A DNA stretch of 64,000 nt from Candidatus Gastranaerophilales bacterium (lineage in GTDB: Bacteria; Cyanobacteriota; Vampirovibrionia; Gastranaerophilales; Gastranaerophilaceae). The stretch covers positions 1-64,000 of the forward strand of contig CALUTL010000001.1 in the NCBI GenBank assembly GCA_944323655.1, in the 5' to 3' direction. The notes beneath the pieces are model-generated. The model was not told the origin of the DNA and searched no databases. It worked only from the letters and a program-made list of their open reading frames with translations. Of the stretch, positions 2,596 to 53,405 are shown in pieces. Every line of letters starts with the position of its first letter. The first letter of the stretch is position 1. The translations under genes were made by a program, and so were the position numbers.

Positions 2596-3322
2596 ATGAT
2601 AGGACAAGGATTTAAGGGGGGGGGGGGGCACCCCAAATAAGCTTCTGAAAGGGTTTACGTTGGCGGAGGTATTGATAACCCTTGGTGTATTGGGTATTGT
2701 AATAGCGATGACACTTCCGACATTAGTTCAAAAGCATAAAGAGCGTGTATTAGTTGCAAAGCTTCAAAAATTTTACTCGACAATGAATCAGGCAATAATG
2801 CTGGCCGAAAATGTATATGGAGAAAGAGAAACCTGGTTTGAAGACATCTATGGTGTGGATGAAGACGGAAATTCTCTTAATCAGGTCTGGTTTGACAGAT
2901 ATTTAAGGAAATATTTGAACATATTAAAAGAAGAAGATCTCAAAAAAGGTGATGGTAAAATCTTATACTATCTTACAGATGGCGGAGCATTTATGAATGC
3001 AGGTAGCAACGGACGTGATTGGTTCTTTTTTCCCGGAAATCCAAAACGTTGTTTAGAAAAATATAAGTATAATGTTCAAAAAATAGCGGGAATATGCGGA
3101 TTTCCGTTTTATTACAATCCTGCAAATACATCAAAAAACCTGCGGGCAAGAGAATTTGCGCCATATGGTATGAACGCCTGGGATGGTAAAGAATCATCTC
3201 TTTACGATCATTCTAGTTTTGGATGTAGTGAAAATTCAGAATGGGGAGGTTTCTGCACATTGTTAATCCAATTTAACGGCTGGAAAATTCCTAAAGATTA
3301 CCCGTTTAAAATATGGTTTTAA
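2596..3322 (+). CDS. Prepilin-like protein, out of frame at a G tract
   Basis: A type IV prepilin-like protein of roughly 230 residues. It carries the class III signal region GFTLAEVLITLGVLG followed by a hydrophobic helix and a soluble C-terminal domain with several Cys and a terminal NGWKIPKDYPF-type ending. The ATG at 2596 has an AAGGAG site 9 bases upstream, but a run of 13 G (2616-2628) puts it out of frame: translation gives MIGQGFKGGGGHPK and stops at 2638. One G fewer would join it to the prepilin frame as a Gly4-Thr-Pro leader. The prepilin frame itself is closed upstream by a TAG at 2600, leaving only weak internal TTG/CTG starts, for example TTG at 2660. Pre-pilins are cleaved after the Gly by PilD and anchored in the inner membrane or a pilus/T2SS fibre. 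Confidence 0.75.
2616..2628 (+). repeat. Poly-G tract (13 G) at the prepilin 5' end
   Basis: An uninterrupted run of 13 G followed by CACCCC lies between the start codon at 2596 and the prepilin cleavage region. Twelve G would restore the frame. Long G runs are rare in such AT-rich DNA and are classic contingency (slipped-strand) sites. Confidence 0.9.
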
Positions 3323-52585: not shown

Positions 52586-53297
52586 CTATTGTAAAAGCCA
52601 TGTCGTATATAGGCAATGCCCACTAGGACACCAACGCCCTTTTTTCTCTATATCCTCCCAGGGTTTAATAACATTTGCTTCTGATACATAAAAACTACTT
52701 GCATTTCTACTGTCAGCAAAGCGCATAACAAATCGGTCTTGACCTAATCTGTTAGGACGTTTATCTCCGTTTACATCAACTAAAATCGGCCATTCATTAT
52801 TATTATATAAATACCACGCCATACCTGAATTATCTTTAAATGCATAACTTGTTTTAACACATCCCAACCAGTCAGGAGCACCAGATGACGGTTTTCCAGC
52901 TTGTCCTTCAGCACATACCCAGCATTCATCTGCATTATTATCAAAGCAAGTTTTTACAGCATTAAAATATTTAGATATAATTTTAAAATTTTTACCTGAT
53001 GCTGAAGTATATGCAGTTCCATCATCCCCATAACTTTCCGGCCTCATACTGATAAATTCGCCACTCTCCTGCATTCTTAAAAAAGCCTGTGAAAAAGCAG
53101 AATAAGCTTTCTTATATGCGACTTTCCACTCTTTTTCTTGATGTTTAGCAATCAATGACAGCAACGTCAGTGCCGCAACTACACCAATAATTCCAATCGT
53201 TATTAAAACTTCTGCTAATGTAAAACCGGTTTCTTTCCCTCTTAAGGAGCTATTCTCGGGTGCCCCCCCCCCCCTGTAATTCAATCATATCAAGCAT
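52586..53297 (-). CDS. Prepilin-like protein, out of frame at a G tract
   Basis: About 230 residues in the prepilin frame, with the class III signal region ETGFTLAEVLITIGIIG, a hydrophobic helix, and a soluble domain with Cys pairs (NADECWVCAEG). The ATG at 53297 has an AAGGAG site 6-7 bases upstream, and a second ATG in the same frame lies at 53288, but a run of 12 G on this strand (53274-53263) puts both out of frame: translation gives MLDMIELQGGGGTRE and a TAG. With 11 G it would read Gly3-Ala-Pro-Glu into the prepilin. In the prepilin frame a TGA at 53287-53285 leaves only a TTG at 53284, far from the ribosome site. Confidence 0.75.
53263..53274 (-). repeat. Poly-G tract (12 G on the minus strand)
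   Basis: Twelve C on the plus strand, read as G on the coding strand, followed by CACCC exactly as in the first prepilin gene. Eleven G would restore the frame. Confidence 0.9.
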
Positions 53298-53405
53298 TTC
53301 CAGCTCCTTATCTTTTCTATGCTACTATTTTATTATACCAACCCTTTTTATTTTTGACAAGTATTTAGATTTTATGCACGCACAAAAGCACTAACCAATC
53401 CTTGC

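Follow-up and report, generated by a model that had tools for sequence, protein, structure and literature searches.

Why should a prepilin gene be preceded by a pure run of guanines that leaves its start codon one base out of frame? The question is raised by a minus-strand gene (52586-53297) in a 64 kb window, the whole stretch of DNA analysed here, from a bacterium of the Gastranaerophilales. These organisms are common, essentially uncultured, non-photosynthetic gut relatives of cyanobacteria, and to our knowledge little has been learned of their interplay with hosts, phages and neighbours. Sequence comparison makes it, in our opinion, quite probable that the gene is a contingency (phase-variable) pilin locus operated by slipped-strand mispairing, with the assembled 12-G state being OFF. 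The pilin repertoire of the genome is very probably large, phase-variable and mostly OFF.

Anatomy of the locus

The elements of the locus and of its counterpart elsewhere in the window are the following.

53332..53360, minus strand: candidate sigma-70-like promoter (sequence match), TTGTCA-17-TATAAT with TG before the -10 element, 11 of 12 positions matching
53304..53309, minus strand: Shine-Dalgarno (SD) sequence AAGGAG of the leader ORF
53297-53295, minus strand: leader start codon ATG
53250..53297, minus strand: leader ORF as assembled (12 G), translated as MLDMIELQGGGGTRE (15 residues), then TAG
53263..53274, minus strand: poly-G tract, 12 G, OFF as assembled; 11 or 8 G would be ON
53258..53262, minus strand: CACCC directly after the tract, a feature of this genus
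53252-53250, minus strand: leader stop codon TAG
53244..53251, minus strand: anti-SD AGCTCCTT, perfect complement of AAGGAGCT (53309-53302), overlapping the leader TAG
52586..53263, minus strand: prepilin frame, coding for 225 aa downstream of the tract, beginning APENSSLRGKETG^FTLAEVLIT
53165..53236, minus strand: prepilin N-terminal methylation motif PF07963 (E 2.3e-05, over the cut-off)
2616..2628, plus strand: first tract, 13 G, OFF (12 G would be ON), in the same arrangement
2630..3322, plus strand: prepilin frame of the first locus, with a DUF6613 body

The earlier note placed 12 G between an AAGGAG/ATG and a prepilin region on the minus strand, which is exact, and held that 12 G lead to a TAG after 15 residues and 11 G to an open frame, with which both translations agree. 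Seven further codons lie between the ATG and the tract, the first G completing the last of them, and by frame arithmetic the ATG joins the prepilin frame when n mod 3 = 2 (n = 11 or 8 G). The prepilin frame, one base off the leader frame, holds the motif GFTLAEVLITIGIIG / GFTLAEVLIT, and its product also scores over the cut-off of TIGR02532, indicating a prepilin cleavage/methylation motif. Like type IV pilins and pseudopilins (PF07963, TIGR02532), the protein combines a GFTLAEV cleavage/methylation motif with a hydrophobic N-terminal helix; ordinary type IV pilins, however, carry a short leader right before the motif, whereas the ON leader here would have about 24 residues, including a glycine run. 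Of the pilin fold, in which a beta-sheet head follows a long N-terminal helix, structure prediction gives a helix at residues 16-66 and an unreliable head (mean pLDDT 48).

These elements suggest the following mode of action. The sigma-70 promoter, whose motif was also seen by eye at three paralogous loci of this genome, and the good ribosome-binding site would always start a short leader ORF that runs into the pure G tract. The number of G residues would then decide the outcome: with 11 the ribosome would continue into the prepilin, and with 12 it would meet the leader stop. Slipped-strand mispairing in replication would now and then add or remove a G, so that the cells of one population would differ in their sets of ON and OFF pilins. 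We infer that slippage is the cause of the length changes, that switching occurs within populations and that the pilin is lost in the OFF state, all of this from sequence; the benefit may lie in adhesion or in evasion of phages or immunity.

The closest full-length relative of the 225-aa prepilin is a gene of another genome (G010:C1:96508-97199), with 78% DNA identity over 683 nt and 76% protein identity (tblastn). The first 100 nt past the tract (53160-53262) are 98% identical to a gene of a third genome (G011:C19:190-289). Because the N-terminal part and the full length thus have different closest relatives, the leader and N-terminus look as if they had been swapped as a module among prepilins.

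G tracts in the genome

The two tracts of the window, described earlier as about 50 kb apart, are separated by 50.6 kb; each is one G away from an open frame, and they are the only runs of at least 8 G or C in the 64 kb. The genome (1.95 Mb in 33 contigs, about 18% G) contains nine runs of at least 8 G, eight of which lie in leaders of prepilin-type genes. A search of the kind proposed in the earlier note, for at least 8 G followed by CACCC before a prepilin-type gene, returned seven loci, including one whose motif is divergent. A prepilin likewise follows the eighth run (12 G), the flanks of which differ from those of the CACCC loci. The ninth (9 G, G000:C18:16144-16152) lies in frame within a Mur-ligase-like gene. 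At this base composition, runs of at least 11 G would be expected almost never in 1.95 Mb; seven are present. The genome thus carries pure tracts of at least 8 G in 5' coding regions at a frequency far above chance, as is characteristic of poly-G contingency loci.

In the assembly, two of the seven CACCC loci are in frame, or ON (L004 and L006). A PF07963 profile search of this genome found 24 prepilins within the E-value limit; about 16 prepilins have no tract, and most of these begin with an ordinary short leader such as MKKGFTIAEV. A prepilin peptidase is encoded as well (PF01478 match at G000:C1:66249-66626). The cell would accordingly possess at least eight switch genes, most of them OFF in the consensus, beside some 16 prepilins with ordinary leaders.

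Distribution across the family and phylum

The claim that the design is not a one-off is borne out well beyond this genome. In the family survey, which sought a G run with a prepilin motif no more than 50 nt downstream and used the reversed pattern as a control, 68 of 239 Gastranaerophilaceae genomes, representing 16 of 41 genera, contained the arrangement; the control gave 0. The arrangement was absent from all 162 sampled genomes of the same phylum outside the family. Within this genus, 13 of 14 genomes contain GGGGGGGGCACCC, in up to 28 copies (reversed-pattern control, 0 matches). A wider scan covered GTDB with one genome per species (84,980 species), and the matches listed were from Gastranaerophilales, Melainabacteria or Cyanobacteria MAGs, unnamed MAGs and a few entries titled Fusobacterium sp. 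One of the latter, JAMPIJ, matches genus g10 in its tract flanks, and its title is therefore taken to be a misnomer.

The CACCC that the earlier note used as a marker holds in this genus; as a general marker it was rejected, since other genera carry other flanks. A phage-borne element was likewise considered and rejected, the 34 viral contigs containing GGGGGGGGCACCCG having unrelated flanks.

Tract length and reading frame

In many pilin genes of the family, a tract of about 8 to 14 G lies near the gene start and is usually one base out of step. Among 257 loci (256 after removal of one duplicate), 45 were in frame, 140 were one G too long and 72 one G too short; these counts come from loci found by pattern, related loci are not independent, and start codons were assigned automatically by a simple SD score. 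Shuffling of lengths within genomes predicts 63.3 +/- 4.5 loci in frame, so that the observed state is rarer than chance (0 of 10,000 within-genome shuffles gave as few as 45), and unstratified shuffles likewise showed in-frame lengths to be depleted. In this genus (99 loci), 19 loci were ON compared with 33.3 +/- 4.0 expected from shuffles, and 71 had one G too many compared with 43.2 +/- 4.0. Tract length follows the flank: a flank shortened by one base often goes with a tract of 13 G, and a flank with an extra CGA goes with one of 11 G. Given in-frame depletion and the tracking of the flank frame by tract length, selection seems to act on frame and not on length alone. A purely hypermutable tract whose OFF state is neutral was rejected as an explanation, as free slipping misfits the single OFF frame shared by most loci of this genus.

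Few copies of the tract are interrupted, almost all being pure G, and tract lengths vary between otherwise matching loci. When loci were grouped by identical 9-nt and 14-nt flanks, 8 of 16 groups held two lengths, always one G apart. The tract of L001 in this genome has 13 G (OFF), and that of its orthologue L076, from a sister species, has 12 G (ON); the two loci are 95% identical over 3 kb and 99.8% over 500 nt of the prepilin part, and indels at the tract and along its borders are among their differences. In some orthologous pairs the length is conserved (L083/L119 and L098/L138). Matching loci, both homologues and an orthologous pair, thus differ by whole G residues, as contingency loci do.

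In Candidatus Gastranaerophilus phascolarctosicola Zag_221, the G runs of two loci (L229 and L231) are broken by assembly gaps (NN), as is expected if reads disagree on the length.

Pairing of the Shine-Dalgarno sequence

About a dozen bases past the tract, loci of this genus carry AGCTCCTT or a variant of it, complementing the SD sequence AAGGAGCT. This anti-SD is kept across the genus even though the prepilin reads it in three frames (SSL, KLL, NAP), and genus g22 has the pair AAGGAGA/TCTCCTT. Complementarity is far above that of shuffled sequence in this genus (mean Z -3.0) and in g22 (mean Z -2.5); it is weak in g3 and g5 and absent in g10, for which reason the pairing was rejected as a universal part of the design. 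Swapping SD and anti-SD partners within the genus caused no significant loss of pairing, because the anti-SD is nearly invariant. A stem of 10 pairs is predicted at the 12-G locus, the overall fold energy of which is not unusual compared with shuffles.

The anti-SD would, by folding back on the SD, damp translation when ribosomes stop at the leader stop. Such an RNA device would limit initiation unless ribosomes pass the anti-SD. A more far-reaching proposal, which we put forward only tentatively and regard as rather doubtful, is that the one-G-off frame and the SD/anti-SD hairpin form a selected device, in which the leader would prime the OFF state, slippage in DNA or RNA would keep the cells or transcripts expressing each of some dozens of pilins to a controlled minority, and combinatorial pili would result throughout this family of gut bacteria.

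Alternative explanations

The main alternative is programmed slippage: the DNA would be held one G off, and a fixed share of transcripts (by polymerase) or of ribosomes would restore the frame, giving low and constant prepilin expression with no genetic switching. The predominance of one G too many in this genus while tract and flank lengths co-vary, the near-constant purity of the tract and the maintenance of the leader stop and anti-SD in place would all fit such an arrangement. The offset, which it implies to be constant, is mostly so in this genus and is different in others: in g22 it is usually one G too few, and g5 and g3 have both offsets. That 45 of the 257 loci are in frame and that identical flanks enclose tracts differing by one G also argue against it, and a survey of bacterial transcriptional slippage analysed A and T runs, with G runs unmentioned (PMC1088944). 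Programmed slippage is, on balance, unlikely.

A second possibility is that prepilin translation begins downstream of the tract or at a codon overlapping it, the tract belonging to a mere leader; an ORF from a TTG at 53284, for example, reads through the 12 G into the prepilin. This TTG lies some 20 nt away from the SD, and many leaders have no such codon. The linkers between tract and prepilin motif provide a broader test. Of 268 sites at which a prepilin motif lies no more than 330 nt from the tract, 266 have a prepilin frame that is stop-free from tract to motif, while the other two frames contain a stop in 459 of 536 cases; in each of the 44 linkers of at least 20 codons, both of these other frames are closed. 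An in-frame ATG, GTG or TTG is present in just 9 of the 202 short linkers. With linkers open and starts rare, the coding region reaches up to the tract and requires a start upstream of it. A downstream start would, moreover, make the frame irrelevant, yet in-frame lengths are depleted; we consider this explanation very improbable. By frame arithmetic and the open linkers, tract length sets whether the product is full-length or truncated, as in known contingency loci. The length-dependent switch proposed in the earlier note is thus backed comparatively by the open prepilin frame, the in-frame depletion and the one-G differences.

Lastly, homopolymers are error-prone and two Zag_221 tracts have gaps inside the run, but the notion that the lengths are sequencing or assembly errors and the true loci all in frame is scarcely credible, since errors would not track the flank frame (13 G with a shorter flank, 11 G with CGA) and the in-frame state is depleted in genomes from many projects.

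Relation to known systems

The mechanism itself is already known, given that a Bifidobacterium breve layout is almost identical and that Neisseria pilC is a classic pilus example. In B. breve, the sortase-dependent pilus loci bbr_0113 and bbr_1889 were shown experimentally to be OFF with G11 and ON with G10; each has a strongly transcribed short upstream ORF, a G tract and a pilin ORF lacking its own SD (PMC9187656). Replication slippage was measured, omission of a single base turned the locus ON, and the ON length was enriched in mice, reaching about 30% at one locus (PMC9187656). The loci described here share with these a gut commensal host, a short leader ORF, a G tract, a downstream pilin ORF with no SD of its own and a usual length of one G too many. 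B. breve is, in contrast, an actinobacterium in which two operons of the strain encode unrelated sortase pili, whereas type IV-type prepilins are the targets here, in at least eight solitary genes and, in a relative, at as many as 28 tract sites that share one flank type, with an SD/anti-SD hairpin in some genera.

In Neisseria, pilC1 and pilC2 have an intragenic poly-G/C tract of 9-20 that turns a pilus gene ON or OFF by frame (PMC5953494). The likeness lies in the intragenic G tract and its control of a pilus gene through frame; unlike the proteins described here, PilC is a pilus accessory protein and not a pilin, it is present in one or two copies, and there is no known relation by descent between the two systems.

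A literature search found no paper linking Melainabacteria/Gastranaerophilales or Vampirovibrionia with pilin phase variation. What is new is the lineage, the type IV-type prepilins as target, how many such loci one genome contains, and the conservation of an off-by-one frame accompanied by the SD hairpin. If the phase-variation reading is true, a family-restricted set of eight to dozens of switchable pilins per genome would be a strong case of G-tract phase variation beyond the classic pathogens. The reading is open to a read-level check in existing metagenomes. Gene callers probably truncate or miss the tract-led pilins in most assemblies.

Mismatch repair and locus arrangement

Missing mismatch repair was rejected as the cause of the tracts, since this genome, like most others with tracts, has MutL (PF01119). 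Two genomes, G054 (g3) and the incomplete G017 (g5), have no MutL (PF01119) match. In G054, 8 of 17 tracts are in frame and lengths of 9, 10 and 11 are mixed, ON being rare in MutL-bearing relatives; in G017, 0 of 9 tracts are in frame. The tracts may become looser when mismatch repair is lost, with G054 as the only case.

Three contigs of G054 (C1, C2 and C4) have adjacent tract-bearing prepilins about 1 kb apart in places, resembling tandem arrays. Two loci of a single genome (L113 and L117, both in G010) have prepilins identical over 500 nt and leaders that differ around the tract, a pattern that suggests gene conversion. Several loci (L041, L043, L053, L063, L086 and others) have long tract-prepilin linkers with a repeated coding motif, CHPEG..RRIS..ILRFAQND; the open frame of these linkers reads through this interspersed repeat.
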